From Acidimicrobiia bacterium (lineage in GTDB: Bacteria; Actinomycetota; Acidimicrobiia; Acidimicrobiales; Bin134): a stretch of 60,832 nucleotides of DNA. Below, piece after piece: positions 2,169 to 41,134 of this stretch. The translations under genes and the position numbers were made by a program. Each line of letters opens with the position of its first letter. The first letter of the stretch is position 1. The stretch lies in contig VYCQ01000005.1 in the NCBI GenBank assembly GCA_009843865.1, positions 1-60,832 of the forward strand, read 5' to 3'. The notes beneath the pieces were generated by a model that had not been told where the DNA came from, made no database searches, and saw only the letters and a program-made list of their open reading frames with translations.

Positions 2169-2477
2169 TTAGTCATCATGCTCCATGGTGGCCCAAAGGC
2201 CATGTTCGTGCAGGCGAAACACATCCATCTCAGCTTTTTCTCTAGGGCCATCTGACACTACGGCACGTCCTTTGTGATGAACATCTAGCATCAATTGGGT
2301 GGCTTGATCCTTGCTATAGCCAAAGAGTTTTTGGAACACGAAGGTTACATACGACATCAAGTTGATGGGGTCGTTCCAAACGATCACCTTCCAAGGCCGA
2401 TCATGATGAGGGTGTGTGTCATCTTCGGGTTCTTTGATTTTTGCGGGGGCAACCTCCGCTGGCGCGATAGGACTCAT
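2169..2477 (-). CDS. clpS: ATP-dependent Clp protease adaptor ClpS
   Basis: A 102-residue ClpS adaptor. The diagnostic core is present: [21 protein letters not shown] (about 28-48, the N-degron pocket with NDP), then [12 protein letters not shown] and the [19 protein letters not shown]-terminus. It delivers N-end-rule substrates to the ClpC/ClpA unfoldase. I place the start at ATG 2477, since the open frame continues upstream into ctaA without conserved content. That start overlaps the end of ctaA by 4 nt (ATGA), so the two genes are translationally coupled. The acidic N-terminal tail (residues 1-25) is the usual flexible extension. Confidence 0.93.
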
Positions 2478-3385
2478 GGCACTATCGTTGTCGCTGTAAC
2501 GATGGGCTGTGGCGCAACAAGCGGACCTCTCAGATTTAGCCAGTAAAACACGGTTACTATCCACAATAGGGCAGCGCCAGCGATGTGTATGCCCACAAGC
2601 AATTCGGGTACTCCGGTGAAGTATTGTACGTAGCCAATGACACCTTGCGCGAGGGCCACCCCCAACGCGGTGCGACTCCAAAACTGAACATGTTCTGGAG
2701 CACTACGTAATCGTAGCCATAGCATCAGCCCAGCCAACATCAATAACAAGGCCACAACCGTTGTGCCATGAATTTGGGCCACATCGCGAATAGTAACGTT
2801 GATGCGTTCGGCTTTCTCATCGCCGCCGTGCGGCCCCGCTCCGGTAACGATGGTACCGGTGATGATCACCATTGAGGTGAGCCCAACTAGGGCGTTGCCT
2901 AGCCAGTGAGCACGGTGGTTGTCTCGATGGGGTCGTGTGTCAGCCGAGGCTCGCCAGTGCAAGATGACCGCATTCCACAAGAGCAGCATGGATAGCAAGA
3001 AGTGGCCTATTACTAACATTGGTGGTAGCTCGTAGAGCACCACCAGCCCGCCCAAGATGATCTGCGCTAGCACTCCGGTCACTAGGCCCCAAGACAGCCA
3101 AATCAAATCTACACGCCGGGGCACGCGCCAGTGAGAGCCCAGCACTGTTGCTATAACGATGGCCGAAACAAGCCCGGTGATGATGCGGTTTATGAACTCG
3201 ATCATGGCGTGGACTTCAAGGGGGGCAATCAGTTGGTCGTTGTCGCAGGCGGGCCAGTCGGGACAGCCCAAGCCCGACCCGGTGAGGCGTACTGCCCCAC
3301 CGCTGATGATTATCAGGGTTAATAGAACCAGCGCGCCGACAGTGATCTTACGGTAGGTAGCGGGAGATGCTTGAGCGTGGATCAC
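2474..3385 (-). CDS. ctaA: heme A synthase (COX15/CtaA family)
   Basis: A 303-residue protein with about eight membrane segments that oxidises the C8 methyl of heme O to give heme A for the caa3 oxidase encoded nearby. Visible family features are [20 protein letters not shown] (about 28-47), and conserved histidines in [27 protein letters not shown] and [10 protein letters not shown]. The cysteine in GCPDWPAC is characteristic of the actinobacterial and Firmicutes-type enzyme. It starts at GTG 3385 with no evident Shine-Dalgarno. It diverges from ctaB (heme O synthase), so the two heme A genes share the 95-bp region 3386-3480. Its 3' end overlaps clpS. Confidence 0.93.
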
Positions 3386-3480: not shown

Positions 3481-4440
3481 ATGGGCCTTACCCGCTTGTC
3501 TCCTCACGGCGATCTTCGAGTTGCTGAGCCCCGTATTGCGCATCGCCTTAGCGTGCGGGTTCGTAGTCGTTATCAGGCGATTCGGGCTTATATCTCGCTT
3601 ACTAAGCCGCGCATTATTGAACTGCTCTTGGTCACTACGGTGCCAGCCATGGTGGTAGCTGATCGGGGTATTCCTTCCCTTTGGCTCATGGCCGCAACGG
3701 TTATTGGCGGCACGCTGGCCGCAGGCGGAGCTAATGCTGTGAACATGTATGTCGACCGTGACATCGATCAGCTCATGGAACGCACTCGCCATCGGCCTTT
3801 AGTGACTGGAGAGATTGCAGCCCGTAATGCCTTGGTGTTTGCTATCACCCTTGAAGCGGTTGCGTTTGTGTGGTTTTGGGGATTCGTGAACTTGTTAAGC
3901 GCAGCGTTAGCGGTGTCGGCTACTGGGTTCTATGTGTTTGTGTATACCTTGTGGTTAAAGCGAACTTCGTCTCGCAATATTGTTATCGGCGGAGCGGCGG
4001 GTGCAGTGCCGGTATTGGTGGGTTGGGCAGCCGTTACCAACACGTTGGACTGGACACCGCTGGTGCTGTTCGCCCTTATTTTCTATTGGACCCCGCCGCA
4101 TTTTTGGGCTCTTGCCATTCGCTACCGCAACGACTACCGAGCTGCTAATGTGCCGATGCTGCCAGCAGTTGCGAGCATTCGCACTGTTGCTGTGCGCATC
4201 GTTGGCTATACGTTGGTGGTGTTGATGTTGTCTGTTGTGTTTTGGTTGGTGGCAGAGATGGGTTACATCTACTTATCTAGCGCATTGGGGTTAGGAGCGA
4301 TTTTTCTTTATGCCGCTATCAAGGTGTTGCGCACACAGGCCGAGGTGTGGGCCATGAGGCTGTTTTCTTACTCCATCACCTATATCACTTTGCTGTTTGG
4401 GGCGATGGTGGTTGATCAGGTGGTTAGAACCGGTGTTTGA
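3481..4440 (+). CDS. ctaB: protoheme IX farnesyltransferase (heme O synthase)
   Basis: A 319-residue UbiA-superfamily membrane enzyme that farnesylates heme B to heme O. The allylic-diphosphate motif NMYVDRDIDQLMERTRHRPL is intact (about residues 89-108), as are YISLTKPRIIELLLVT and the second Asp-rich loop around NDYRAANVPMLP. The frame is open upstream to 3367, but ATG 3481 has GGAAGG just before it and gives the usual family length. It is divergent from ctaA and sits upstream of the oxidase genes. Together ctaA and ctaB supply heme A for CtaD. Confidence 0.94.
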   Translation: MGLTRLSPHGDLRVAEPRIAHRLSVRVRSRYQAIRAYISLTKPRIIELLLVTTVPAMVVADRGIPSLWLMAATVIGGTLAAGGANAVNMYVDRDIDQLMERTRHRPLVTGEIAARNALVFAITLEAVAFVWFWGFVNLLSAALAVSATGFYVFVYTLWLKRTSSRNIVIGGAAGAVPVLVGWAAVTNTLDWTPLVLFALIFYWTPPHFWALAIRYRNDYRAANVPMLPAVASIRTVAVRIVGYTLVVLMLSVVFWLVAEMGYIYLSSALGLGAIFLYAAIKVLRTQAEVWAMRLFSYSITYITLLFGAMVVDQVVRTGV

Positions 4441-4544: not shown

Positions 4545-6257
4545 ATGACGATCGTTGACACGAGGTCCGAAACAGAGTTGCCGCAAACCAGCGGCCCTCA
4601 GCCATCGCAAGCTCAGCTGGTGGTCAGTGAGTTGACCCCTTCTACGGATTTAGCAGGGATTTTGAGCAGCAGCCATCATCAGGTTATCGGGCGACTGTAC
4701 GTGCTGTGCGCGTTGGGATTGTCGGGGCTGGGGCTAGGGCTAGGTTTGTTGATGAACCTGGAGAAGGTTGACCTAGACGCAGGTCTTGGGATTTTTGGGA
4801 ACACCAACGAATTGTTTCAGGTTTTTGCACTGTATCGCACCACATTGATTATGTGTGGGCTGGTGCCATTGCTTTTAGGACTGGCCACAGCAGTGATTCC
4901 CAAGCAGCTGCGAACCGTCACCGTGGCCTATCCTCGAGCGGCTGCGGCTGCTTTTTGGACTTGGCTGATTGGTGCGATCACTCACATAGTCGCCACCTTT
5001 TCTTATGGTGGGCTGGGTTCGCTGCAAGCTGGTGCAGCACGCGAGCAGTCGGTGGAGCTCACCTTGTTGTCGCTGGGGGTTGTGGCTTTAGGGTTATTGG
5101 TTGGCTCTGGAGTGATTTTGGCAACCTTGATCACGCAGCGTCCCGCTGGGATGGATCTCTTGCAGATGCCAGCATTCAGCTGGTCGATGATGGTGGCTAC
5201 GACGGTTTGGCTGTTTTCGCTGCCGGTGCTGTTGGCTAATCTGGTGATTTCTTGGGTGGATATGCGCGGGGCTACCGCTTTACGCTTTGGCACAGCCGAT
5301 GCTCCTTTTGAGCATGTGGCTTGGGCATTTGACGTTCCACAGGTTTATGCCTGGGCGCTACCGTTGTTGGGCATCGTAGCCGAGGTGCTTATTTCGGCTC
5401 ATCGCAGCCGCCCTAAGTTATTTGAGCCCATGGTATTTATAGTGGGAGCGTTTGGTTTCTTGTCTTTCGGGGCTTGGGCACAGAGTTTTTTTGACAGTGC
5501 TGAGCCGTCGGCACTTGATGCGCATGTGGTGTCTAATGAGGTGGTGTTCGTGGTGTTTGCCTTAGGAATCGCGGGGGTGGTGCTGGCCTTTGGCATCTGG
5601 CTGGCTTTTAACGTTGTTTCAGCCGAGCAGCGTCCTATTATCTCTCCGCAGTTTGGCTTGGCGGTGTTGTCGGGAGCGTTGTTGACGGCCGCCGTGACTG
5701 TGGGTGTGTTGCGGGTGGCTGGGTCTGCTTTGGGTGTGTTGCGGGAAGCTGATAGCAACTTGTGGCCCGGGTTTTTTGATGCCATGGACGACTTAGCAGG
5801 CTCTAGCTTGGTAACCGGAATGATGAACTTAGTGGTGCTGGCTGGATTGTTGGCAGCGGTGGCGGGCATCTTCCACTGGGCACCTAGGCTTTTGGGTCGT
5901 CGCTTAAACGCTTCGTTGGGGTTCTTAGCGGTTGTGATGCTGGGCGGTGGGGCTATGTTGTATGGCTTCACTGATGTGCTGGGCGGGTTTTTTGATCAGC
6001 CAGATCGTTTCTTTGTGGTTGGGTCGTTTGCTGTTGCCAATTTAGATGCTGTTGATGCTTTGGGTTTCGTGGAAGCCCTTAACGTGATCGGGTTGGTGGG
6101 GGTCGTTGCTGTGTTGGGCGGGTTGGCCTTGGTAGTTCTAAATGTGGTCATGAGCTTGGTCTCACCTGCTGACTTAGATGTTGCAGATGACCCAAGTGTT
6201 GTAGACGATGGTGATGGGTTAACTGCTGATATGAGCGTTGATGGGCAGGAGCGCTGA
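4545..6257 (+). CDS. heme-copper oxidase subunit I paralogue lacking all metal ligands
   Basis: A 570-residue, roughly 14-TM protein that clearly aligns with CtaD encoded at 9030. Shared landmarks include HHQVIGRLYV against DHKRIGIMYG, and GMDLLQMPAFSWSMM against GMSLFRMPVLTWMLL. Every cofactor ligand is replaced. The low-spin heme His in FTIHGVTM corresponds to ALYRTTLIM (about 95-103). The CuB motif GHPEVY becomes DVPQVY (263-268), keeping the Tyr. The CuB pair AHH becomes AQS (312-314). The heme ligands in HFHY become GMMN (near 424-427). It should therefore bind neither heme nor copper. The start is ATG 4545, with GGAG 4 nt upstream. It overlaps the subunit III-like gene at TGATG. Automated annotation would probably name it cytochrome oxidase subunit I; the role is unknown, perhaps structural. 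Confidence 0.8.
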   Translation: MTIVDTRSETELPQTSGPQPSQAQLVVSELTPSTDLAGILSSSHHQVIGRLYVLCALGLSGLGLGLGLLMNLEKVDLDAGLGIFGNTNELFQVFALYRTTLIMCGLVPLLLGLATAVIPKQLRTVTVAYPRAAAAAFWTWLIGAITHIVATFSYGGLGSLQAGAAREQSVELTLLSLGVVALGLLVGSGVILATLITQRPAGMDLLQMPAFSWSMMVATTVWLFSLPVLLANLVISWVDMRGATALRFGTADAPFEHVAWAFDVPQVYAWALPLLGIVAEVLISAHRSRPKLFEPMVFIVGAFGFLSFGAWAQSFFDSAEPSALDAHVVSNEVVFVVFALGIAGVVLAFGIWLAFNVVSAEQRPIISPQFGLAVLSGALLTAAVTVGVLRVAGSALGVLREADSNLWPGFFDAMDDLAGSSLVTGMMNLVVLAGLLAAVAGIFHWAPRLLGRRLNASLGFLAVVMLGGGAMLYGFTDVLGGFFDQPDRFFVVGSFAVANLDAVDALGFVEALNVIGLVGVVAVLGGLALVVLNVVMSLVSPADLDVADDPSVVDDGDGLTADMSVDGQER

Positions 6258-6859: not shown

Positions 6860-7696
6860 GTGTTCACTCCTGGGTTTAGACTTTTTTTTGGTTTCACGCT
6901 GGCAGCGATAGCAGCCGCTGCTGTGTACGGTGTGGCTAGCGGCAGCGCCGGTGATACGGAATACTTCGGGGTTTTGAATGTGGAGGCCTGGGTGGGTGTT
7001 CTCAGCTTGGGCTACAAGGGCGGCATTGGTGACCATGTGGGTTACGTGGTGTTGATGGGCTTTGCGGTGTTGTCTGCGATGGTGGCCGTTTTCTTGGTGG
7101 CGTTTCGTGATGCCGATGCTGAATCGGTTGCCGAGCTAACTGATGATGTGCAAATTCCAGCACCTCAGGGTCAGCTAGAGGCTAACTATTGGCCTGCTAT
7201 TTCCGCAGTTGGCGTGGGGGCCATAGTTGTTGGGTTGGCTATCAACCCGATGATCTTTGTGATTGGGTTGGTGATAGTGGGTGCCGTCATCTTTGAATGG
7301 ATGATTGCTGCTTGGGCTGACCGGGCTACCGCCGATCCAGAGGTGAATCGCTCTTTGCGTAATCGCATTATGCGTCCAGTGGAGTATCCGGTGACTGCTG
7401 CTTTGGGCATTGCCATATTGGTGTTAGCTATGTCGCGGGTGTTTTTGGCGGTATCTAAGTTCAGCGCGGTGATGGTGGCAGGCGTGGTGGCCACCGCAAT
7501 TTTTGTGATTGCGGTGATCTTTGTGACGGTGCCTCGCATCAGCCGTTCGGTGATTGCTGGTACGGTAGCGTTAGTTTGTGTAGGTGTTTTGGTGGCTGGG
7601 GTGATCACCGCTGCTGTTGGCTCGCGTGAGTTTCACCATGTTGGCCCCGGTGGCGATCACGGTGAGCATTTAGAAGACAGTGGGGCCAGTGGGTGA
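6860..7696 (+). CDS. multi-pass membrane protein of the oxidase-paralogue module, function unknown
   Basis: I do not recognise a family. It has 278 residues, GTG start, and 6 nt separate it from the preceding gene. There are about seven hydrophobic segments: residues 5-25, 60-85, 110-130, 130-152, 175-195, 205-225 and 230-250. A hydrophilic loop lies near 86-108 and a positively charged cytosolic loop near 155-172. The C-terminal tail is rich in His and acidic residues (HHVGPGGDHGEHLEDS). No heme or metal motif is evident apart from that tail. Its position between the subunit I/III paralogues and ctaC, on one continuous coding run, suggests an accessory subunit or assembly factor of either complex. 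Confidence 0.6.
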   Translation: MFTPGFRLFFGFTLAAIAAAAVYGVASGSAGDTEYFGVLNVEAWVGVLSLGYKGGIGDHVGYVVLMGFAVLSAMVAVFLVAFRDADAESVAELTDDVQIPAPQGQLEANYWPAISAVGVGAIVVGLAINPMIFVIGLVIVGAVIFEWMIAAWADRATADPEVNRSLRNRIMRPVEYPVTAALGIAILVLAMSRVFLAVSKFSAVMVAGVVATAIFVIAVIFVTVPRISRSVIAGTVALVCVGVLVAGVITAAVGSREFHHVGPGGDHGEHLEDSGASG

Positions 7697-7757
7697 TGCG
7701 AACAAACGTAGAGATGTCTACAAATCTAACTACATCACCAAACTGGGAGAGCGTGAG

Positions 7758-9023
7758 GTGAGCAGGAATCTGAAGGCGCTGGTGTGGCTGTCTAGCTTGT
7801 TGGTAGTAACAGGGGCCATCGCTTTGATCGTGGTAGCCATAGTGCTAGATGACAACCACCCACTGTCTACCTTGTCGCCGGTGGGTCGTCAAGGTCGTGA
7901 CATTGCTGCGCTTATTAACCCCATCTTCATTGTGGCTGGGGTGATCTTTTTCTTGGTGCAAGGTGCGGTGTTGGCCCTTTGGTGGCGTTACCGAGTGTCT
8001 GGGTCTGAAAGCGGCGACGGCGAGTTTGGTTATTACGAGGACGGGGAGTTTCCCGAGCAGATACATGGTAATAATCGTGTAGAGATAGGTTGGACGTTGG
8101 TCCCCACTGTGCTGTTGGCTGTGATCTCGGTGTTTACGCTTATAACTCTGTTTGCCCTAGATGATGTGGAGGCCTCCGATGAAGACATGGTGGTAACCGT
8201 CGTTGGTCAGCAGTGGTGGTGGGAGTATCAGTACCACCTAGATGGCAACACCTCTACACCGCCTGATATTGTTACCGCCAACGAGCTGGTGATTCCCGTG
8301 GGGGTGGATGTGCCCTTGGACATCAAATCGCGTGATGTGATCCACTCGTTTTGGATACCCAAGCTGAATGGAAAAAGAGATGCCGTGCCTGGTCGTGCGC
8401 ACGATTGGGTGATTCAATCTGAAGAGACAGGGCGTTTCAGAGGTCAATGTACGGAGTTTTGCGGGTTGGCCCACGGTTACATGAAGATGGTGGCGGTGGT
8501 GCTCACCAAACAAGAGTTTGCTCAGTGGCGAGACAACCAGATCACCTCAGCAGATATGCCTCAAGAGGGCACTGCTGCTCACGAGGGTTGGCAGGTGTTT
8601 AGTCAGCAGTGTGCTAGTTGCCATGTGGTGAACGGAATAACCTCGGCGACCAACAGAGGAGGCAGTGGTACCGAAGCTGATACCTGGGACATTTACAGAG
8701 AACTCAGTGGTAATGATGCCGGTGCCTATTTAAGTCAAGATACTTTAGTTGCTGGCGCGGCACCCAACCTCACTCACTTGATGACTCGTAGTACCTTTGC
8801 AGGCTCTTGGTACGACCTGTATCTAAATGCTGACAGCCATTTAAATTACTTAGATTTGCCCGAAAATGGCATTTTGAATCGGGTGGAGTTGGAGAAATGG
8901 ATTCATAACGCTCCCGAGCGCAAGCCAGCCGCTGCTGATGAGTTGCGGGGCATGCCTGCTCGCAGCAGCCTGAGCCCTCAAGACATCGACAACCTAGTGG
9001 CCTTCATGTCTACCCTGGATTGA
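7758..9023 (+). CDS. ctaC: cytochrome c oxidase subunit II with fused cytochrome c (caa3 type)
   Basis: A 421-residue subunit II. Two TM helices (about 5-30 and 53-80) are followed by a cupredoxin domain with an intact CuA site: VIHSFWIPKLNGKRD for the first His, then GQCTEFCGLAHGYMKM supplying C-x3-C-x3-H-x2-M. A C-terminal cytochrome c domain follows, with QQCASCH for heme attachment and a probable distal Met near RGMPAR. This fusion defines caa3-type oxidases. GTG 7758 has GGAGA about 8 nt upstream. An alternative GTG at 7680 would add 26 residues and overlap the previous gene. It receives electrons from the bc complex or its cytochromes and passes them to CtaD. Confidence 0.93.
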   Translation: MSRNLKALVWLSSLLVVTGAIALIVVAIVLDDNHPLSTLSPVGRQGRDIAALINPIFIVAGVIFFLVQGAVLALWWRYRVSGSESGDGEFGYYEDGEFPEQIHGNNRVEIGWTLVPTVLLAVISVFTLITLFALDDVEASDEDMVVTVVGQQWWWEYQYHLDGNTSTPPDIVTANELVIPVGVDVPLDIKSRDVIHSFWIPKLNGKRDAVPGRAHDWVIQSEETGRFRGQCTEFCGLAHGYMKMVAVVLTKQEFAQWRDNQITSADMPQEGTAAHEGWQVFSQQCASCHVVNGITSATNRGGSGTEADTWDIYRELSGNDAGAYLSQDTLVAGAAPNLTHLMTRSTFAGSWYDLYLNADSHLNYLDLPENGILNRVELEKWIHNAPERKPAAADELRGMPARSSLSPQDIDNLVAFMSTLD

Positions 9024-9029
9024 ATCTGA

Positions 9030-11006
9030 ATGAGCACTACACAAGGTACCATTTCAGCATCTTTGGCAACTCGCCTGCTTGGCGTGTTCAGCCGACCTCA
9101 AGGCAGTGAGGGTTGGAAGAGCTGGCTGTTCACCGTTGACCACAAGCGCATTGGCATTATGTATGGCGCTGCTGCGCTGTTCTTCTTCTTAGTGGGTGGG
9201 GCCGAAGCTCTGTTCATTCGTTTGCAGCTAGCCACCCCCAACGGGTCGGTGATTGGGGCTGGAACCTACAATGGAGTGTTCACCATCCACGGTGTGACCA
9301 TGGTGTTCTTGGTGGTCATGCCCATGGCAGCCGCTTTTGCCAACTATCTGCTGCCGCTGCAAATAGGAGCCCGGGATGTGGCTTTTCCGCGCCTCAACGC
9401 CTTTAGTTTTTGGTGCTTTTTGGCGGGGGGCGTGTTGCTTACCTCTTCGATATTTATAGGCGGCTGGTTTCAGAATGTGCCCGACGCAGGTTGGTTCAAC
9501 TATGCCCCCAACAGCGGAGTGTTGTTCTCACCCCACAAGGGGGTGGACTTTTACGCCGTGGGTCTTCAGATAACCGGCATTGCTTCGTTGGTGAGTGCCG
9601 TTAACTTGATTGTGACCGTGCTGAACATGCGCGCCAAGGGCATGAGCCTATTTCGAATGCCCGTGCTCACCTGGATGCTGCTAATCACACAGTTCTTGTT
9701 GTTGTTTGCGTTGCCGGTAATCACCGTGGCCCTGTTCTTGTTGATGTTTGATCGTTTGTGGGAGTCCAACTTCTTCAATGTGGCAGCCGGGGCTGACCCG
9801 CTTTTGTGGCAGCACCTTTTTTGGATTTTTGGGCATCCCGAGGTTTACATCTTGATCCTGCCAGCCTTTGGGATTGTGTCGGAGATCATCCCCACCTTTT
9901 CTCGTAAGCCCATTTTTGGTTACCACTTCATGGTAGCATCGGGTATCGCCATTGGCTTCATGGGCTGGGGTGTGTGGGCACACCATATGTTCACCTCAGG
10001 TATGGGCCCGTTGTCGGTGGCTGCTTTTGCAGTGTCTACCATGTTTATTGCCGTGCCCACCGGGGTAAAGATCTTGAACTGGCTTGCCACTATGTATAGG
10101 GGGCGATTGCGATTCACTACACCCATGTTGTACGCGGTGGGAGTTGTGTCAATGTTCACAATTGGGGGCTTGTCGGGGGTGACGCATGCCATTGCCCCGT
10201 CGGACACGCAACAGACTGACACGTATTACATTGTGGCTCATTTTCACTATGTGATCTTTGGTGGGGCGTTGCTAGGGCTATTTGGGGGATTCCATTTCTG
10301 GTGGCCCAAAGCCTTCGGCTATAAGCTGAACGAGTTGTGGGGCAAAGCCAGCTTCTGGGTGATGCTGATCGGCTTTAATTTCACTTTTGGCCCTATGCAT
10401 ATATTGGGATTGCAGGGTATGTCGCGGCGCATCGCCACTTACCAGGCTTCTGAAGGGTTTGCTTTTTGGAACATGGTGGCCACTATTGGTTCGTTCGTGA
10501 TAGCTGTTGGCGTGGCTATGTTCTTGTGGAATGTGTTCTCTAGCACTCGAAATTGGCGACGGGTTGGGCGACCTAGTGTGGGGCCCGACCCCTGGGATGC
10601 CCGAGGCTTGGAGTGGATGACCGCTTCGCCAGCGCCTGAGCACAACTTTGACTCCGATATTCAAGTGGATCGTTTTGATGAGTTTTGGCACCGCAAGTAC
10701 GGCCGTGATGAAAAAGGCAAAATCGTGAGGGCAGCCAGAGCAGAAGAGATAGCTCACGATGGCAGCAACACCAACGTGCATCTGCCATCGCCCTCTTACT
10801 GGCCTTTGGTGCTGGGGGTGGGCATCATGCTTGTGGGATATGGGCTGATATTTAATCTTTGGATCGCAGCTTTAGGTGTGGTGGCGTTAGTGGGTGCAAT
10901 TTATGGCTGGTGCCTAGAGCCAGCCGACGATCCAGATACTGCCCACGGCCACGATCACGCTGGGCGTAATAGCTTAGAAGACGAGGAGGCGATTACCGTT
11001 GGCTGA
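9030..11006 (+). CDS. ctaD: cytochrome c oxidase subunit I
   Basis: A 658-residue catalytic subunit with all ligands present: low-spin heme His in FTIHGVTM (H87) and HFHY (H406), CuB ligands in GHPEVY (H269, cross-linked Y273) and AHH (H318/H319), and the high-spin heme His H404. The K-channel Lys is visible in AVPTGVKI. The C-terminal 130 residues exceed the classic subunit I. They contain a hydrophilic stretch and two extra hydrophobic segments (about 585-630), ending in a His/Asp/Glu-rich tail, as seen in other actinobacterial caa3 oxidases. It lies directly after ctaC and overlaps ctaE by 8 nt. Confidence 0.96.
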   Translation: MSTTQGTISASLATRLLGVFSRPQGSEGWKSWLFTVDHKRIGIMYGAAALFFFLVGGAEALFIRLQLATPNGSVIGAGTYNGVFTIHGVTMVFLVVMPMAAAFANYLLPLQIGARDVAFPRLNAFSFWCFLAGGVLLTSSIFIGGWFQNVPDAGWFNYAPNSGVLFSPHKGVDFYAVGLQITGIASLVSAVNLIVTVLNMRAKGMSLFRMPVLTWMLLITQFLLLFALPVITVALFLLMFDRLWESNFFNVAAGADPLLWQHLFWIFGHPEVYILILPAFGIVSEIIPTFSRKPIFGYHFMVASGIAIGFMGWGVWAHHMFTSGMGPLSVAAFAVSTMFIAVPTGVKILNWLATMYRGRLRFTTPMLYAVGVVSMFTIGGLSGVTHAIAPSDTQQTDTYYIVAHFHYVIFGGALLGLFGGFHFWWPKAFGYKLNELWGKASFWVMLIGFNFTFGPMHILGLQGMSRRIATYQASEGFAFWNMVATIGSFVIAVGVAMFLWNVFSSTRNWRRVGRPSVGPDPWDARGLEWMTASPAPEHNFDSDIQVDRFDEFWHRKYGRDEKGKIVRAARAEEIAHDGSNTNVHLPSPSYWPLVLGVGIMLVGYGLIFNLWIAALGVVALVGAIYGWCLEPADDPDTAHGHDHAGRNSLEDEEAITVG

Positions 11007-11622
11007 TGTTATGGCTGCTGAGGCCATCAACCACTCCGCTCAAGAGCAGGACCATCACTCCAGCACAGGGATTTCTAATGAGAAGCTGGCGATGTGGGTT
11101 TTTTTGGGTTCAGAGTGTCTGCTGTTTGGCGGGCTCATCTCCACATACATGTTCAACAAGGATCGCATCGGCCTCAACGACATCGGCCCCAGCGATGTTT
11201 TCGATATTCCCTTTACCTCGGTTAGCTCGTTTGTGTTGTTGATGAGTTCGCTTACGATGGTGTTTGCTGTATCTGCCATCACTAGGGGTGATCTGCGTGC
11301 TAATCGTATCTGGTTGGCCACAACCGCTGCTTTAGGTGCCACTTTCGTGGCCGGGCAGGTTTATGAGTTCACCGCTTTCTACAGCGAAGGTCTTGGGTTT
11401 ACTACTAACTTGTTTGGTTCTTCGTTTTACGCACTCACTGGATTTCATGGTGCTCACGTAACCATCGGCATCATCATGTTGATGTCGCTGTACATTATGT
11501 CGTTGCGGGGCAACTTGCCTGCTGAACGAGCTGAGACGGTGGAAATTATTGGCTTGTATTGGCATTTCGTGGACATTGTCTGGATCGTGATCTTCACGAT
11601 CGTCTATCTCTTCCCGCAATAG
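10999..11622 (+). CDS. ctaE: cytochrome c oxidase subunit III
   Basis: A 207-residue, five-TM subunit III. Family signatures are KLAMWVFLGSECLLFGGLI, GFHGAHVTIG and LYWHFVDIVWIVIF. I chose the TTG at 10999 because GGAGG at 10984-10988 is spaced correctly for it; the ATG at 11011 would be too far away. The start lies inside the end of ctaD, giving an 8-nt overlap and translational coupling. Subunit III has no redox cofactor and stabilises the proton-uptake side of subunit I. Confidence 0.94.
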   Translation: MADVMAAEAINHSAQEQDHHSSTGISNEKLAMWVFLGSECLLFGGLISTYMFNKDRIGLNDIGPSDVFDIPFTSVSSFVLLMSSLTMVFAVSAITRGDLRANRIWLATTAALGATFVAGQVYEFTAFYSEGLGFTTNLFGSSFYALTGFHGAHVTIGIIMLMSLYIMSLRGNLPAERAETVEIIGLYWHFVDIVWIVIFTIVYLFPQ

Positions 11623-11630
11623 GATTTCCT

Positions 11631-11978
11631 ATGGCTATCGTTGACCCTGAAATAACTGAACCTGATATCTCAGAGCCGGAGATCATAAACGTGGAGCACG
11701 CCCATCCCACCGACTGGCTCTACGTGAAAGTGGCCATCGCTTTAGCGTTGCTCACAGCGCTTGAGGTGTTCACCTACTTTGAGTCGGTTCACGGCTGGAG
11801 TGACACGGTGCTTATCGTGATGTTGGTGGCCATGATGCTGGTGAAGTTCTTTTTAGTTGTGGCCTTTTTTATGCACTTAAAGTTTGATGCTCCTATTTTT
11901 TGGCGATTGTTTGTGTTTGGGGTGGTGCTGGCTATGGCGATATATATGTTGATGCTCACAGCGTTTCGATACTGGTAG
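11631..11978 (+). CDS. ctaF: cytochrome c oxidase subunit IV (caa3-type small subunit)
   Basis: A 115-residue protein with three TM helices (about 30-48, 57-78, 87-110) and the pattern HPTDWLYVKVAIALALLTALEV...FFLVVAFFMHLKFD of the prokaryotic COX4/CtaF family. The frame stays open upstream inside ctaE, but ATG 11631 directly after the ctaE stop gives the expected length. The start has only a weak AGGA upstream. The acidic Glu/Pro/Ile-rich first 20 residues are predicted to face the cytosol. It closes the ctaCDEF block. Confidence 0.88.
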   Translation: MAIVDPEITEPDISEPEIINVEHAHPTDWLYVKVAIALALLTALEVFTYFESVHGWSDTVLIVMLVAMMLVKFFLVVAFFMHLKFDAPIFWRLFVFGVVLAMAIYMLMLTAFRYW

Positions 11979-12005: not shown

Positions 12006-12890
12006 ATGCTTTTTGTTGTCGATACTGACATCTGGCGGTACCAACCTCATGTTGAGGTGTGGATAATCGTGTTGGGTGCCGTGGCTATGGCATGGTACGC
12101 GTTTAAAGTAATCGCCCCCAAAGCTGCTCCGTTGGGCCAACCCGCATTTACTAGGCATCATCTTGGTGCTTTTGCGGGTGCATTGTTTATGTTGTGGCTT
12201 GCCAGCGACTGGCCTATGCATGATATCTCTGAGGAGTACCTGTATTCGGTACACATGATTCAACACCTGCTAATTACGTTTGTGGTGCCTCCCTTGTTGT
12301 GGGCGGCTATACCTGAATGGCTGGCACGGCTTTTTTTGAGCGGAGACGGCAGTGTGGGGGTGTGGACGCGGCGCTTAGCTCGTCCGGTCACAGCGGGGGT
12401 GTTGTTCAACTTTTTGGTAGCGGTGAGCCACATCCCGTGGGTGGTTAACACCTCAGTCGAAAGCGGCGCATTGCATTATTTCGTGCATGTGTTGTTGTTC
12501 GCGGCTGCATTGGTGATGTGGCTTCCGGTATGCGGGCCCATTCCCGAACTGCAAATGCGTCCGCCGGGGAAGATGGTTTACCTGTTCTTGATGTCTGTGG
12601 TGCCTACTGTTCCGGGCGGGTTTTTGACGTTTGCTCAGGATGCCGTTTACAGCGCTTATGACCATCAGGTGCGACTTTGGGGCATTGGTGTACAGGCCGA
12701 TCAGCAGGCTGCTGGCTTGATCATGAAGTTGGTTGGCGGCATTTATTTGTGGACTTGGATTGGGGTGTTGTTTTTCGGGTGGGCTGGCCATCAGCACCGT
12801 GCTAATACCCAGATGCGCTTAGTGACCTCTTCGGCGACCAAGTCAGCCAGCCAATCTAACAGCGACCACATTGCCAACAGTTCTCAATGA
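12006..12890 (+). CDS. ctaG: CtaG-type cytochrome c oxidase assembly protein
   Basis: A 294-residue protein with about seven TM helices matching the caa3_CtaG family. Characteristic features are LASDWPMHDISEEYLYSVHMIQHLLITFVVPPLLW (about 60-95), the HxxH-type histidines in it, HYFVHVLLFAAALVMWLPV, and DHQVRLWGIGVQADQQAAGLIMKLVGG. CtaG proteins help insert copper (CuB) into subunit I. It is cotranscribed with ctaCDEF, and its stop overlaps serS by 4 nt. The Ser/Asn-rich C-terminal tail is not conserved in the family. Confidence 0.85.
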   Translation: MLFVVDTDIWRYQPHVEVWIIVLGAVAMAWYAFKVIAPKAAPLGQPAFTRHHLGAFAGALFMLWLASDWPMHDISEEYLYSVHMIQHLLITFVVPPLLWAAIPEWLARLFLSGDGSVGVWTRRLARPVTAGVLFNFLVAVSHIPWVVNTSVESGALHYFVHVLLFAAALVMWLPVCGPIPELQMRPPGKMVYLFLMSVVPTVPGGFLTFAQDAVYSAYDHQVRLWGIGVQADQQAAGLIMKLVGGIYLWTWIGVLFFGWAGHQHRANTQMRLVTSSATKSASQSNSDHIANSSQ

Positions 12891-35051: not shown

Positions 35052-35690
35052 ATGCCCGGTGGGGCTACTACTATCAACTATGACCGCTTCCATGATCGGA
35101 GGAACGTGGCTGGCCAAAGGCCTATAGACATCGCTGTCACCAAGTTCTATAAGGCCCTCGGGGTGTGCTTTGTGCTCTACCTAGCGTTATGGGCTTTTAT
35201 TGCAGTACATCAGTATGACGAGGGCTTGGGAGCGCCTTATTTCAATGTCGCTTTTACTGCTTCGCTGGTGGTGACGGTTGTAGGCGTGGTGGCGTTTTTA
35301 GAATATGCCCGACGTCGCCCTGTGGGTTCCTATCACACTTGGGGGGAGGCCATGCTTGCCGCCACGCTAGTGTTTTTTTTGTTGTTTTGGATTTATGGCG
35401 TAGTGCCTCATCAGTGGCTGGTGTATGCCGACAGTGAACTGGGTTGGCGTAAAGACCGTCTCGTAGAGGGCTATTACGTAGGCAACCAAGGCATCATTTC
35501 TTGGGCTTTGCCTTTTGATCTGCCCTATTTGGTGATCCGCGACGTAGTTGCCGTGTTGATCTATGTTTTAGGTTTGGTTGGTAATATTGCTGCTTGGGTG
35601 GTTTGGCAAAATCGCGGTAAGACCGCTGCTGTGGAAGTTGAACGCTCTGAGTATGGGCGTCCGATCGTGAGAGAGGGGGCGGGTGTTTGA
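35052..35690 (+). CDS. four-TM membrane protein of the bc-complex operon, unknown
   Basis: I do not recognise a family. The 212-residue protein has four helices at about 33-53, 64-85, 98-122 and 164-187, with a conserved-looking exoplasmic segment WIYGVVPHQWLVYADSELGW between helices 3 and 4. No cysteine pair or heme motif is evident, but His and Trp in that segment could sit near a quinone or heme. It is the first gene of the long operon and its stop overlaps the ferredoxin start (TGATG), so it is probably a subunit or partner of the bc complex or of the ferredoxin. Confidence 0.65.
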   Translation: MPGGATTINYDRFHDRRNVAGQRPIDIAVTKFYKALGVCFVLYLALWAFIAVHQYDEGLGAPYFNVAFTASLVVTVVGVVAFLEYARRRPVGSYHTWGEAMLAATLVFFLLFWIYGVVPHQWLVYADSELGWRKDRLVEGYYVGNQGIISWALPFDLPYLVIRDVVAVLIYVLGLVGNIAAWVVWQNRGKTAAVEVERSEYGRPIVREGAGV

Positions 35691-36106
35691 TGGCTGGCGC
35701 TGATGCCAACCCTGCAATGCCTGAGTTTCGCGACGATTACGTGCTTGTTGAGGTGGAGAACGACTACCTTCAAAGCAAGGTCAAGCCTAAGCAGTTCATC
35801 CACATTGATCAGTCTGAGTGCATTATGTGTGAGGGTTGTGTGGACATCTGCCCGTGGAAGTGTATTCATATGGTGACCCCTGAGGCGGTAGATGTGGCTG
35901 TGGGTATCGAACAACCCGGGGTTGACCCGAGCGACCATGTGATCTTCACCATTGATGAGGATGCTTGCACTCGGTGTGCTCTGTGCGTAGATCGTTGCCC
36001 TACCGGGGTGATCACGCTTGGTAAGTTGGGTGATCCGGGTAGCGACGGCGACCCGCATCAGAGAATGACTAGCTATGGCTATGGTTACGGCATGCGCCTA
36101 GCGTAA
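35690..36106 (+). CDS. two-cluster [4Fe-4S] ferredoxin inside the bc-complex operon
   Basis: A 138-residue soluble protein. Two cluster motifs are intact: CIMCEGCVDICPWKC (C-x2-C-x2-C-x3-C, with a further Cys) and CTRCALCVDRCPTG. Between them is an acidic insert of about 40 residues (PEAVDVAVGIEQPGVDPSDH), longer than in small bacterial ferredoxins. It is unlike the NuoI encoded later, which keeps a shorter spacer. The start ATG 35690 overlaps the stop of the unknown membrane protein. A dicluster ferredoxin translationally coupled to a bc-locus membrane protein suggests a low-potential electron donor or acceptor for this complex (inference). Confidence 0.87.
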   Translation: MAGADANPAMPEFRDDYVLVEVENDYLQSKVKPKQFIHIDQSECIMCEGCVDICPWKCIHMVTPEAVDVAVGIEQPGVDPSDHVIFTIDEDACTRCALCVDRCPTGVITLGKLGDPGSDGDPHQRMTSYGYGYGMRLA

Positions 36107-36147
36107 GAACTATCTCACAGAGTAGAAAGATAAACCAAGGAACATAA

Positions 36148-36933
36148 GTGCCAAAACAGTCCAAACCACCAGTCAGCGAGCGTGTTAGACAGTCCATGAG
36201 TTCAGCGATGGACAGTATGCAAGCATCGCAGGCGTGGACCTCAATCTTTCGGCCCGGCTCCATTTTTCGTAAGGGTTATACCGACAGTCCTCGCAATCGC
36301 AGTTATGTGATCATGAACAGCGTGTTGTATCACCTGCATCCGGTGAAGGTGAAGCGTCACGCTGTGAAGGTGAGCTATACCTTGTGTTTGGGCGGGCTCA
36401 GCTTCTTTTTGTTTATTCTGCTGACTGTTACCGGTATCTTCTTGATGTTCTTTTACCGTCCCACTGCAACTCAGGCTTGGGATGACATCTACAACCTGCA
36501 AGCTTCGGTAACTTTTGGTTTGTTGGTGCGCAACATGCATCGTTGGGCGGCGCATCTGATGGTGATCTCAGTGTTTTTACATATGGCTAGGGTGTTCTAT
36601 CACGGGGCTTATAAGCCGCCTCGTGAGTTCAACTGGGTAATCGGGGTGATTTTGTTGACCCTGACGCTGTTGTTGTCGTTTACTGGATATTTGCTGCCTT
36701 GGGATCAGCTAGCGCTTTGGGCGGTGACGGTAGGCACCAACATGATGGGCTTTACTCCCGTTTTTGGTGATCAGGTGCGTTTTGTGTTGCTTGGTAGCTT
36801 AGAGATCAGCACCGACACTTTGTTGCGATGGTATGTGTTACATGTGTTGATGCTGCCTTTTGTGATCGTCATATTTATGGCCATCCACTTCTGGCGAGTG
36901 AGAAAGGATGGGGGTATCTCCGGGCCGCTCTAG
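36148..36933 (+). CDS. cytochrome b, N-terminal part (b6-type split cytochrome b)
   Basis: A 261-residue protein carrying the four heme-binding helices of cytochrome b. Histidine ligands for two b hemes are in RNMHRWAAHLMVISVFLHMARVFYHGAY (about 131-158) and RWYVLHVLMLPFVIVIFMAIHFWRVR (about 230-255). The Qo-side GYLLPWDQLALWAVTVGTNM is intact. A 60-residue polar N-terminal extension precedes the usual start. GTG 36148 has AAGGAA upstream. It is split from the C-terminal half as in b6f and Bacillus QcrB/QcrC complexes. Confidence 0.93.
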   Translation: MPKQSKPPVSERVRQSMSSAMDSMQASQAWTSIFRPGSIFRKGYTDSPRNRSYVIMNSVLYHLHPVKVKRHAVKVSYTLCLGGLSFFLFILLTVTGIFLMFFYRPTATQAWDDIYNLQASVTFGLLVRNMHRWAAHLMVISVFLHMARVFYHGAYKPPREFNWVIGVILLTLTLLLSFTGYLLPWDQLALWAVTVGTNMMGFTPVFGDQVRFVLLGSLEISTDTLLRWYVLHVLMLPFVIVIFMAIHFWRVRKDGGISGPL

Positions 36934-36975
36934 CAGCGAGGTAGTTGCTATTGCGGGAGTTGGAAGCACATTTAC

Positions 36976-37782
36976 ATGGCTGAAATCCCAGAACATCTTC
37001 TCAAGCGTGCTCAAGAAGCCCGTCAGCGTGCTGATGCCCAAAAGGGTGGTGGTGCTGATGAGGCTGAGTCAGCAGGATCTGAGGCTGAGTCTTCTCCTCT
37101 CTCACAGGCTTCTAGTGATGGTCCGAAGATCCCGGAGCATCTGCTAGATCGTTCTAAGTCTGCGCGTGCTCAAGCAGCAGGTGCATCAGACAGGGCCTCG
37201 GCTGATGTCGCAGGCGGAGGTGCTTCTGCTGTTACCACGACACCTGTGCCAGCGGCATCTGCCCAACCTGAACATACCGGTCCGGGGGGCGGCACGCAGC
37301 GGCTTCTCACGGTGGTTAAGTCGGGCTCTATTCAAGATGTCAAAGCCACTCCCACCGACAAGGTGCATGTATGGCCGCATTTGCTGGTGATTGAGTTTGT
37401 GGCTGCTTTGCTGGTGACGGCCTTCACATTGCTTTTCTCTATTTTTGTGAATGCTCCCTTGCTAGAGCTAGCTAACGTGAATGAAACCCCTAACCCATCT
37501 AAGGCCCCATGGTATTTCTTGGGCCTTCAAGAACTGCTTACCATGTTTCATCCGATGGTGGCTGGGGTGACCATTCCGGGTATGGGCCTTTTCTTGTTGA
37601 TGCTGGCCCCCTACATGGATCGTAATCCCAGCAAGAAGCCAGAGGATCGCAAGTTTGCCATTTCGCTTATGACGGTGCATTTAATGTTTTGGGCGATATT
37701 GGTGTTGATCGGCTCGTTCTTCCGTGGCCCCGGGTTTAATTTTGTCTTCCCTTGGGTTGATGGTCTGTTCTTTGATTTGTAG
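36976..37782 (+). CDS. cytochrome b, C-terminal part (subunit IV type) with double PEHLL extension
   Basis: A 268-residue protein. The membrane part (about 130-268) is the subunit IV half: NPSKAPWYFLGLQELLTMFHP is the Qo loop (PWYF variant, as in menaquinol-using QcrC), followed by two more helices. The N-terminal 125 residues are hydrophilic and low in complexity, and contain two copies of one motif: IPEHLLKRAQEAR (4-16) and IPEHLLDRSKSAR (52-64). A related motif starts the cytochrome c at 34077. The extension is cytosolic by topology and may bind a common partner or connect complex subunits. Confidence 0.88.
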   Translation: MAEIPEHLLKRAQEARQRADAQKGGGADEAESAGSEAESSPLSQASSDGPKIPEHLLDRSKSARAQAAGASDRASADVAGGGASAVTTTPVPAASAQPEHTGPGGGTQRLLTVVKSGSIQDVKATPTDKVHVWPHLLVIEFVAALLVTAFTLLFSIFVNAPLLELANVNETPNPSKAPWYFLGLQELLTMFHPMVAGVTIPGMGLFLLMLAPYMDRNPSKKPEDRKFAISLMTVHLMFWAILVLIGSFFRGPGFNFVFPWVDGLFFDL

Positions 37783-37785
37783 AGG

Positions 37786-38664
37786 TTGACCGTGGTTGTT
37801 GCGCTTTCCATTGCTATTCCGATCATCTTGCTAGGTGCAATTATTGTGCTTGTCGGCGCAGCCCGTAGGCGCGAGACAATGGCAGCAGAAGGTCAGTTCA
37901 GCCGTGAGACCCGCAGTAGTGATAGCAGCCACACTGAGTTGGCTCGCTCTGGTGGCGATCCTGCGGCTCTTAGCGGTCGCGAGGTGGAGCGGGCAGCGGT
38001 ACTAGCTCGTCGTAGTCAAAGCGTTGAGTTAGTTGAGGCACCTGATGTTGTTTTGGAAAATTGGGTGCCGCCTGATCCTGAAGCAGTGGGGGTAAGCAGG
38101 CGGCAGTTCTTGAATCGCAGTACGGTGGCGATGATGGGTGTGGGCTTCAGCGGGTTTGGTGCGGCTTGTGTGGCGTTTTTGTGGCCCCCTTTTATTTCGG
38201 GATTTGGGGCTGACGTGAACGTTGGCAATGTGGAAGAAGTGAAGGCCAGGATTCGTGACGAGAATGGTTTTTTGTATCTGCCTGAAGGACGAGCTTGGGT
38301 GACAGAGTATCCAGCGGCTGCTTTGCAAAAGGCTCAAGCCGCCTATAGTGCTCCTGAGTTAGCGGGCATGGAAGCCGGTTTAGTGGCGTTGTTTCAAAAG
38401 TGTCCTCACTTGGGGTGTCGAGTTCCGTCATGCCCTACTTCGCAGTGGTTTGAGTGCCCTTGCCATGGTTCTCGCTACAATCAGGTGGGCGAGAAGCGGG
38501 GTGGGCCAGCACCGCGAGGCATGGACCGTTTTGCTATGTCGGTGAACTCTAAGGGCGAGTTCATCATCCGCACTGGTACCGTTATTCAAGGACCACCCGT
38601 AGGGTTGAACACAACTGGTCAAGAGCCTGAGGGTCCGAGTTGTCTCGGGGGAGCTTCCCACTAA
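37786..38664 (+). CDS. Rieske iron-sulfur protein of the bc complex
   Basis: A 292-residue protein. It has an N-terminal TM helix (1-25), a cytosolic charged stretch, and a second helix after RRQFLNRSTVAMMGVGFSG, which resembles a Tat-type signal kept as an anchor. The Rieske domain has CPHLGC (about 206) and CPCHGSRY for the 2Fe-2S cluster; ligands are two Cys and two His, plus the disulfide pair. Actinobacterial Rieske proteins share the multi-helix anchor. TTG 37786 is used. Its stop overlaps the cytochrome c start (TAATG). Confidence 0.93.
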   Translation: MTVVVALSIAIPIILLGAIIVLVGAARRRETMAAEGQFSRETRSSDSSHTELARSGGDPAALSGREVERAAVLARRSQSVELVEAPDVVLENWVPPDPEAVGVSRRQFLNRSTVAMMGVGFSGFGAACVAFLWPPFISGFGADVNVGNVEEVKARIRDENGFLYLPEGRAWVTEYPAAALQKAQAAYSAPELAGMEAGLVALFQKCPHLGCRVPSCPTSQWFECPCHGSRYNQVGEKRGGPAPRGMDRFAMSVNSKGEFIIRTGTVIQGPPVGLNTTGQEPEGPSCLGGASH

Positions 38665-39995
38665 TGCATCTGCTTGCTTCTTCAACCCAGCGTAATCTGG
38701 GCATGGCTATCGCGGTGCTAGCTATCGTGGGCTTTGCTGTCTATCTGATCTACAACGTGTTGTGGGCAGGACGCGCTGAGAAGGGCTCAGAGCTAGAGCT
38801 AGCTCCCAATCGCAAACCCTATTTGAGCGATGAGGATCTGGAGACCAAAAAGTTGGACTTCAGCTTGGCGACTGGCTTAGTTACCTTGGTGATTATCGGG
38901 GTGGCCTTGCCGCTTTATTGGTTAGGTGAGCCAGGGCGCCAAGAAGGTTATGTGAACTACACCCGCGATCAGTTCACTAGCAGGGGATTTGAACAGTACG
39001 AGGAGCGCTGTGCTAGCTGTCATGGAGGTGGTGGTTTGGGTGGAACTACTGCTACTTCGGTCACAGACGATAACGGCAATTTTGTGGCTGCCATTCAGTG
39101 GGAAGCCCCGGCGTTAACCACGGTGCTGTATCGCTTTTCTGAAGAAGAGGTGCGCTATATCCTCAACTACGGGCGACCTCCAACTCCTATGCAGGCTTGG
39201 GGAGCACCCGGCGGTGGTCCTCTCACCACTCAGCAAGTAGATGAGATAATTCAATATATTCAGAGCATTCAGCTTTCGCCCGATCAGGTGCAGGCTGAGG
39301 TGTTGGACGGATTAGTGCAACAAGTGCGGGCTGATGTTCTGCTTGTGTACCCGCATCTCAGCGAGCAGCTCGCTCAAGCTTCCGCCGCTGTTGCAGCCGC
39401 TGGAGCTGATGAGTCAGAGGCTGAGTCAGCAGGTCGTCAACTAGCAGCTATTGAACAAGAAATTCGCGAAACCAGCGAGCAATATATTAGCGATTTGGCT
39501 TCATCTGATCGTGGTGAGCTGCTTTTCAATAACGGAGAGTACGGTTGCGCTAGATGTCACACTCCTCGTGAGTCTTGGATTTTCACTGGGCCTGAACGAG
39601 TGCCCGGTGAGGGCTCAGTGGTATTGGCTAAAGGGTCTGAAGCAGAAGCGGAGGTAGTGGCGGCTTTGGGCAATTTGATTCCTGCCAAAATCTCAGGTGG
39701 AGGTGCCTTCGGTTCCAACCTAACCAACGGTTCTACGCTTAGACAGTTTGATACCGCTGAGGGTCACGCTGGTTTCATCATGGTGGGTTCTCAAGAAGGT
39801 GTGGGCTATGGTAACTTTGGTCAGGGCGATGGGGGTGGGCAGATGCCAGCGTTTGGGGTGTGCGTGGGTGACCGAGATTCCGGTGAGCGCAGCCCCATAT
39901 TTGGGTTCTGCACACTAGAAGATGGCAGTGTTCGGCCCGGCTTGTTGACCGAGCAGCAGATCGCCGACATCGTGGCCTACGAGCGGGAAATGTAG
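38664..39995 (+). CDS. diheme cytochrome c subunit of the bc complex
   Basis: A 443-residue membrane protein with TM helices at about 10-32 and 70-90 and two c-heme sites: CASCH (about 121) and CARCH (about 295). The second domain is separated by a helical Ala/Glu-rich region (about 225-275). A probable Met ligand is in GGGQMPAFGVCVGD. Two cytochrome c domains in one subunit follow the QcrC logic of actinobacterial bcc complexes, in which electrons pass straight to the oxidase, although here the oxidase carries its own cytochrome c too. The gene overlaps the Rieske gene. Confidence 0.88.
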   Translation: MHLLASSTQRNLGMAIAVLAIVGFAVYLIYNVLWAGRAEKGSELELAPNRKPYLSDEDLETKKLDFSLATGLVTLVIIGVALPLYWLGEPGRQEGYVNYTRDQFTSRGFEQYEERCASCHGGGGLGGTTATSVTDDNGNFVAAIQWEAPALTTVLYRFSEEEVRYILNYGRPPTPMQAWGAPGGGPLTTQQVDEIIQYIQSIQLSPDQVQAEVLDGLVQQVRADVLLVYPHLSEQLAQASAAVAAAGADESEAESAGRQLAAIEQEIRETSEQYISDLASSDRGELLFNNGEYGCARCHTPRESWIFTGPERVPGEGSVVLAKGSEAEAEVVAALGNLIPAKISGGGAFGSNLTNGSTLRQFDTAEGHAGFIMVGSQEGVGYGNFGQGDGGGQMPAFGVCVGDRDSGERSPIFGFCTLEDGSVRPGLLTEQQIADIVAYEREM

Positions 39996-39997
39996 CT

Positions 39998-41134
39998 GTG
40001 GGGTTGTTGTTGGCTGTTTGGAACGTGTTGGGGGTTATCTCATTTGATAATGAGATTCGTGGCCTGTTGGTGGTGTTGTTGGGTTGCGCGATCTTGATGG
40101 GCTCGGTTTGGCTGATCGTATCCACCAACACGGGTTTTCGGTTGGGGTCACTGATAGCTATCTCTGCCATCTTTGGTTGGACGCTGATTATGGCGCTGAT
40201 TTGGGCGCTGTACGGTATTGGACTGCAAGGCGCTCGTCCCGTTTGGGAAGTGCAGGCCGTTCATGTCGGTAATCCCTCCATTGCTAACAATGCGGCTAAC
40301 CCGCCTCCAGAAATTTTAGATGATTTACCCAATCCGGTTACTTGCGCAGCCTTAGGTAACAGAGATTGTCTGCCTAGCGCTATTGAGATAGTTCGCACTT
40401 TAGGCAGCAGCGAACAACAAGCCGAACTAGACACCATTGATGTCGCGGCCATTGCGTTTGAGGTAGATGCCTTTCACGACGCTCTAGCCGACACCGATCC
40501 TCGTAAACTCATCGGCGCAGCACGCCAAGCTGAGGTACAGCGGTTGGTGGATGAGCAGCGCATACGTAACGAAGGTCTCACCTTAAGCGATTTAAAGGAA
40601 CTTGCTCCGGAACTGCTTGAAGCCGCCGAAGACAGTGGTTGGTTGGAGTTGGGCGACTGGAACCTTCAAAGCACTCAGGCAGCAGGTGAGGCCATCACCG
40701 TTGCTAGTGATTATCTGGTGCAAGCCGACTTGGGCTTTGGTGCTACCGATGAGCAAAGCAATTCTTTTGTGGTGCTAGATGCTTATCAGCAAGGCGGCAA
40801 GCCTGAGCGTCTCAACAACGGGGTGTGGGAAAGGGTCAGCAACAAGGTGATAACTAGTGCTATGCCTCGCCATCCATCTAACTACACGGTGGTGCAGGTG
40901 CAGCGTTCTATCTACTCAGAGCCAGTAGCTGGGCAAGCTCCGCCGCCCGAAGAAGTTGACTCCAGCGAGCCAGTGCTCTCGGTGTTGATGCAACGTAATC
41001 TGGGTCGTTTTCGCCTGCCTGGTATTTTGGTGGCTATTGGTTCAGGATTGTTGTTTTTAGCATCTTTGTTGATGCTCCATACCCGTGATTTGGAAGTTCG
41101 TCGTCGCCTAGAAGGTGAAGGCACTATTACCTGA
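39998..41134 (+). CDS. membrane protein with large extracytoplasmic domain, bc-operon, unknown
   Basis: I do not recognise a family. The 378-residue protein has about three N-terminal helices (residues 2-76), a soluble region of about 250 residues rich in acidic residues and helices, and one C-terminal helix (IPGILVAIGSGLL-type segment, about 340-360) followed by a basic tail. Two cysteines in CAALGNRDC could form a disulfide. No heme motif occurs. The start GTG 39998 lies 2 nt after the cytochrome c stop, and nuoA begins 20 nt after its end. It is probably an accessory subunit of the bc complex or a link between complexes. Confidence 0.6.
   Translation: MGLLLAVWNVLGVISFDNEIRGLLVVLLGCAILMGSVWLIVSTNTGFRLGSLIAISAIFGWTLIMALIWALYGIGLQGARPVWEVQAVHVGNPSIANNAANPPPEILDDLPNPVTCAALGNRDCLPSAIEIVRTLGSSEQQAELDTIDVAAIAFEVDAFHDALADTDPRKLIGAARQAEVQRLVDEQRIRNEGLTLSDLKELAPELLEAAEDSGWLELGDWNLQSTQAAGEAITVASDYLVQADLGFGATDEQSNSFVVLDAYQQGGKPERLNNGVWERVSNKVITSAMPRHPSNYTVVQVQRSIYSEPVAGQAPPPEEVDSSEPVLSVLMQRNLGRFRLPGILVAIGSGLLFLASLLMLHTRDLEVRRRLEGEGTIT

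Follow-up and report, generated by a model that had tools for sequence, protein, structure and literature searches.

A subunit I homologue without heme or copper ligands is conserved with its companions inside the caa3 oxidase operon of an Acidimicrobiia order

The caa3 oxidase operon of an Acidimicrobiia bacterium, located in a 60,832-nucleotide stretch of DNA (the window), contains a gene encoding a COX1-fold protein, pI, in which all of the heme and CuB ligands have been replaced. Together with the COX3-like pIII and the membrane protein X, pI makes up a module inserted between ctaB and ctaC. All of the genes from ctaB to ctaG run in one direction, and the module is probably co-transcribed with the caa3 genes. 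Computation gave the fold of pI, the loss of its metal ligands and proton-channel residues, the module and its operon, purifying selection, a single clade and a graded series of relatives that retain some of the cofactor sites. From the operon, co-inheritance and constraint we infer, at somewhat better than even confidence, that pI, pIII and X form a cofactor-free I-III-IV subcomplex that associates with the caa3 oxidase and acts as its structural half or as a scaffold.

The ATG of pIII overlaps the stop codon of pI (TGATG). The only subunit II gene of the operon is ctaC, which belongs to the real oxidase; there is none for the pI module. The genome (1.79 Mb, 98% complete) contains only two COX1 genes, pI and ctaD.

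Table 1 Genes of the operon region and replaced-ligand codons, in positions of the window
Feature	Position	Strand	Basis
ctaA-like, probable heme A synthase, divergent	2474..3385	-	Open frame, named from sequence; orthologues in same place
ctaB, probable heme O synthase, directly upstream of module	3484..4440	+	Open frame, named from sequence
pI, COX1-fold protein without heme or CuB ligands, 570 aa	4545..6257	+	Open, intact frame (ATG 4545 to TGA 6257), Pfam, alignment, AlphaFold
Replaced-ligand codons in pI	Y97 4833-4835; V264 5334-5336; Q313-S314 5481-5486; M426 5820-5822; N428 5826-5828	+	
pIII, COX3-like, 198 aa	6257..6853	+	Pfam COX3 (PF00510) 3.6e-9, 37.3 bits, cut-off 23.8
X, 278-aa membrane protein, COX4-like fusion	6860..7696	+	Profile and structure comparison, relatives
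ctaC, real subunit II, CuA domain and fused cytochrome c	7680..9023	+	Pfam COX2 3e-20, cytochrome c
ctaD, real subunit I, ligands HHHHHH	9030..11006	+	Pfam COX1 4.7e-154; TIGR02891 679.7 bits, cut-off 670.75
ctaE, real subunit III	10999..11622	+	Pfam COX3 3.3e-20
ctaF, subunit IV	11631..11978	+	Pfam COX4_pro 5.3e-9
ctaG, caa3 assembly factor	12006..12890	+	Pfam Caa3_CtaG 3.7e-39

The Pfam COX1 profile (PF00115) matches pI over almost its entire length (2e-30, 106.5 bits versus a cut-off of 34.8; profile positions 2-415 of 436), and pI shares 25% identity with the CtaD of the same window. An AlphaFold2 model built from 89 sequences (mean pLDDT 88.1, pTM 0.91) superposes on the CtaD of the M. 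smegmatis supercomplex (6adq_F) with Z 39.1 and an rmsd of 2.6 Å over 455 residues, and the Foldseek hits of the model were to oxidases throughout. The protein is predicted to have the complete 12-transmembrane-helix COX1 fold. The loop motifs PLQ.G...AFPR and R..GM.L...P.F.W are retained, as is the C-terminal DPW.G.TLEW tail in most pI relatives. The near-whole profile match, the intact frame and the predicted fold bear out the claim of an earlier note, made from the sequence alone, that this is a full-length oxidase paralogue. Thus, pI shares both its full-length fold and its loop motifs with subunit I of the family A heme-copper oxidases (CtaD/COX1). It differs from them in having no heme a, heme a3 or CuB ligand and no D or K channel, and in failing the subunit I equivalog TIGR02891, for which it reaches just 133.5 bits against the cut-off of 670.75. 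Heme-copper oxidases are defined by their metal sites; pI is a member of the COX1 superfamily by homology but is not an oxidase by this defining chemistry.

The ligand columns were read from a multiple alignment of 115 pI-type proteins (88 non-redundant sequences plus the window copy, with some genomes entered twice) and 107 CtaD proteins, the latter having the six ligands in essentially every copy. In pI of the window the two low-spin-heme histidines and the high-spin-heme histidine of CtaD are replaced (H87 by Y97, H406 by N428 and H404 by M426), as are the three CuB histidines (H269 by V264, H318 by Q313 and H319 by S314). None of the seven histidines of pI (44, 45, 147, 257, 286, 327 and 444) falls in a ligand column of this alignment, which rules out the filling of the metal sites by His residues from elsewhere in the protein, an outcome that the earlier note had raised. 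Its claim that all six ligands are lost therefore holds, and it was also correct as to the GHPEVY, AHH and HFHY sites. However, H87 has become Tyr (FALYRTT) and not an "Arg/Thr region" as described. As six otherwise invariant residues are gone while the frame is intact, and the loss is common to the homologues, it is not a matter of chance.

The replacements vary across the pI family (Y, S, F, G or A at position 97 and Q, V, M or L at position 426), and of the two heme-propionate arginines, the first is usually gone. The position of CuB His333 is Gln in 95 of 110 copies (the five first-found heme-retaining copies being left out), a result that is hard to obtain by drift and argues that the former active site was rebuilt; the E286 position is Gln in 76 of the same 110 copies. 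The channel positions are likewise altered. In Rhodobacter numbering, pI has T126 for D132, T115 for N121, Q266 for E286, V346 for T359 and F349 for K362, and these five residues are replaced in nearly all pI copies. Since the CuB triad is found in 0 of the 115 sequences and the low-spin heme pair is missing from about 90%, redox function is, judged from the alignment, excluded for most pI copies.

The second protein of the module, pIII, is a COX3 family member by Pfam, is 23% identical to CtaE and is encoded next after pI in nearly every locus. Within X, residues ~45-137 are related both to actinobacterial subunit IV and to the C-terminal region of CtaD, whereas residues ~145-260 are homologous to the membrane-anchor segment of X', a cupredoxin protein encoded adjacent to CtaG in other Actinomycetota (E values down to 9e-26). 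The subunit IV profile PF12270 gives the window X 10.2 bits, below its cut-off of 26.9, and matches 10 of 67 X relatives, the best at 8e-5. The structural resemblance to subunit IV is also weak (7q21_F, Z 6.9 over 77 residues; 8hcr_H, 6.2; 6hwh_S, 6.1), these matches lying amid unrelated ones of similar Z, and a Foldseek search with the X model gave no significant match. Relative to X', X has the additional N-terminal subunit IV-like part and, in this lineage, lacks the cupredoxin domain. That domain is present in the basal X proteins of six loci (L033-L036, L043 and L146). A search of the window's genome with the cupredoxin profile PF13473 found nothing except a weak match inside CtaC. Taken together, the three proteins of the module appear to mirror subunits I, III and IV, subunit II having no counterpart.

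Other arrangements were seen around X and X'. In one family (f7; L042, L055, L058, L062, L064, L068 and L072), X has a C-terminal tail at the cupredoxin's location; this tail lacks the copper ligands and may represent another metal site that the module has lost. In four basal loci that retain cofactor sites, a gene for a thioredoxin-like protein (TlpA/ResA-type, WCxPC) comes after X (L033, 9591-10232; L035, 6555-7301; L036, 7877-9634; L146, 3839-4330). In loci of other Actinomycetota classes (L101-L114), ctaC-D-E-F-G is followed by a gene for an anchored cupredoxin with blue-copper type ligands (e.g., L102, 6517-7212, and L112, 7044-7718), which is a candidate for carrying copper or electrons for that caa3 oxidase.

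The relatives of pI form a graded series. The low-spin heme His pair is kept in 12 loci, 7 of which (L033-L036, L043, L154 and L194) also keep the a3 proximal His. All six loci in which X carries the cupredoxin, with its H..C..H..M ligands, keep the low-spin pair, and among the loci read the cupredoxin never occurs where the pair is missing (Fisher p 2e-7, uncorrected for kinship). The loss of the heme ligands and that of the cupredoxin do not always coincide, as five loci have the pair but no cupredoxin. Most lineages, this genus included, keep no heme or copper ligands. The series fits an order of loss in which CuB went first, then the a3 His and the cupredoxin, and then the low-spin heme. 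On a quick tree the low-spin pair changes five times, and thus the final loss probably happened more than once. The earlier note had considered that homologues might have ligands and this copy be simply decaying. Some relatives do have heme ligands, but the CuB triad is missing from all of them, and most of the order shares the ligand-free state, under constraint.

In a tree that included oxidases of other classes, the caa3 CtaD proteins formed one clade (100/100) that does not contain pI, and this rules out pI as a recent duplicate of the adjacent ctaD. A branch with 100/100 support sets the pI proteins apart, those that retain heme ligands lying closest to the active oxidases, and the tree indicates one old clade. 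This clade attaches on the side that contains CtaD2 oxidases from several classes, on long branches and with no one group standing out as its sister. CtaD2 is the second type of Actinomycetota oxidase (operon CtaC-CtaD2-CtaE-IV). CtaD2 proteins are the top-scoring active relatives of pI by profile and share the gene order I-III-IV, but they have all six ligands and their own CuA subunit II, and no one group among them stands out as the donor. A CtaD2 gene in one locus (L087, G150:C22:32859-34442) has one in-frame TAA; that genome is 96% complete.

The terminal branch of the window copy is 1.83 for pI versus 0.22 for CtaD, an approximately eightfold faster rate. In 21 close pairs (Nei-Gojobori), dN/dS was 0.04-0.18 for pI, 0.03-0.25 for pIII, 0-0.17 for X and 0.01-0.15 for CtaD, values that indicate strong purifying selection on pI. 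The assertion that pI is under selection rather than decaying is upheld by these ratios. The earlier note left out pIII, X, the basal relatives bearing heme and cupredoxin sites and the old, separate clade of pI.

The order ctaA(reverse)-ctaB-pI-pIII-X-ctaC-D-E-F-G is near-invariant in the window's genus and in many families of its Acidimicrobiia order; ctaB orthologues lie upstream of pI in nearly every locus and the pI frames are open in the genomes searched. A scan of named genomes gave 80 loci, 79 with pI, labeled mostly Acidimicrobiales or Acidimicrobiia, and the closest named pI-bearing genomes include Candidatus Poriferisocius. Three loci (L160, L149 and L168) are titled Bifidobacterium breve, Terriglobia and Acidobacteria despite an Acidimicrobiia-type operon and are probably from mislabelled bins. 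A Pseudarthrobacter protein (L192) considered as a pI was rejected because it scores as CtaD2-type. A phylum-wide scan found full-length copies of X nowhere beyond this order. In the corresponding scan with the pI profile for ligand-free modules in other classes, high scores were obtained outside the class, but the 14 hits examined among the strongest of these were all active oxidases with six ligands. Where pI is missing from a searched genome of the order, the oxidases are in nearly every case distant ones only (455-544 bits or less versus >800 for caa3-type CtaD). The clear exception is G022, in which an X with a cupredoxin lies just upstream of ctaC and the contig ends before pI. In other orders of the class (L109, L110 and L115) a caa3 oxidase is present without the module, and hence the module is not required for caa3 oxidases generally.

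In the structural reading, which we favor, pI, pIII and X would together constitute a cofactor-free version of an oxidase's membrane core (I, III and IV but no II), made from the same operon as CtaC-D-E-F. This pseudo-oxidase core would bind the caa3 oxidase permanently, either as the dead half of a pseudo-dimer or as a scaffold that holds caa3 and its partners in the membrane. The module would have arisen once within this order, its ancestor being an old oxidase already without CuB that still contained its hemes and had an anchored blue-copper domain as partner. In most lineages, including this one, the hemes and the copper domain would later have been lost and the protein scaffold alone kept. 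The overlap of pI and pIII, the single direction of transcription, the conserved gene order, co-inheritance, the kept fold and the low dN/dS argue for this reading, as do the rebuilt former active site, the exclusion of redox function for most copies, the graded loss of cofactor sites and the lack of a separate subunit II. Against it, pI evolves much faster than CtaD, beyond what is expected of a tightly packed subunit, and the caa3 oxidases of other orders in the class run without the module. Moreover, heme binding by Tyr97, Met426 or Asn428 is conceivable in this genus, although these columns vary freely across the family. A fuller version is more tentative, and we give it a little less than an even chance: in this order, caa3 may be built into a mixed complex together with a ghost oxidase (I-III-IV) free of metal that was once a redox unit, passing electrons from blue copper to a bis-His heme a with no O2 site, and that lost its cofactors stepwise, CuB first and the low-spin heme last, with intermediates still living.

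The main rival reading is that the module is an assembly factor, a dead template or holdase that acts while CtaD and CtaC are made, for example by taking heme A from CtaA/CtaB or aiding copper insertion, and then leaves. We consider this unlikely, although the module does lie between the heme A synthesis genes (ctaA and ctaB) and the structural genes, basal X proteins carry a cupredoxin and are followed by the CxxC thioredoxin-like gene in the four loci given above, and the relative of X in other classes adjoins the assembly gene ctaG. Most copies have no known heme or copper ligands, such that handing over either is hardly possible, and a chaperone would not be expected to be as large as a complete I-III-IV copy. 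Sco was not found in this genome or anywhere in the genus, a gap that might suit an assembly role, but the search did not find it in its Corynebacterium control either, and thus its absence is not special. Because the genome encodes SURF1, the usual factor for heme assembly, pI is ruled out as a substitute for a lost SURF1.

A regulatory or sensory module that tunes the oxidase by taking up some other small molecule in its vacated heme pockets is improbable. The former active site has new conserved polar residues (Q313, Q266 and R98) that are possible ligand binders, but these may merely fill the cavity, and no signaling domain is attached in this lineage. Very improbable is a hidden heme held by other ligands (e.g., Tyr97 and Met426) and still transferring electrons. 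Tyr and Met may serve as heme ligands elsewhere, and the bis-His heme a positions and blue-copper domain of the basal relatives imply that the ancestor was probably redox-active. However, the residues that replace His at 97 and 426 are not conserved family-wide, and one of the heme-propionate arginines has usually been lost. Proton or ion conduction through a cofactor-free channel, a role suggested in the earlier note, would make use of the retained 12-helix fold, but replacement of the D and K channel residues in nearly all copies speaks against it and we regard it as very unlikely. A decaying pseudogene, despite the loss of all catalytic residues and an evolution faster than that of CtaD, is ruled out for practical purposes by the dN/dS constraint, together with the open frames, the near-invariant operon order and the confident fold.

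The core proteins of complex III are degenerate structural copies of enzymes in respiratory complexes. Like these, pI has an enzyme fold without catalytic residues, its own status as a subunit being putative. No such copy of heme-copper oxidase subunit I and no published description of the pI module were found in the open literature searched, most subscription papers being outside its coverage. As far as these searches show, a conserved, probably co-transcribed and metal-free subunit I with III and IV companions throughout an order would be the first pseudo-oxidase of the superfamily. Under the structural reading, the surviving intermediates make testable the passage from a redox complex to a structural complex and what is gained from a dead copy of a respiratory complex. 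Annotation of pI as "subunit I" would hide its metal-free state, as the earlier note had anticipated, and domain-based annotation of this kind would inflate the oxidase counts of Acidimicrobiia genomes.

Elsewhere in the window, positions 35052-41131 encode a bc-type complex, in which cytochrome b may be split between two genes (match at 36148-36930, next gene at 36976-37779). This region includes a protein with two CxxCH motifs (38640-39992), and probable NADH dehydrogenase genes follow after position 41155.
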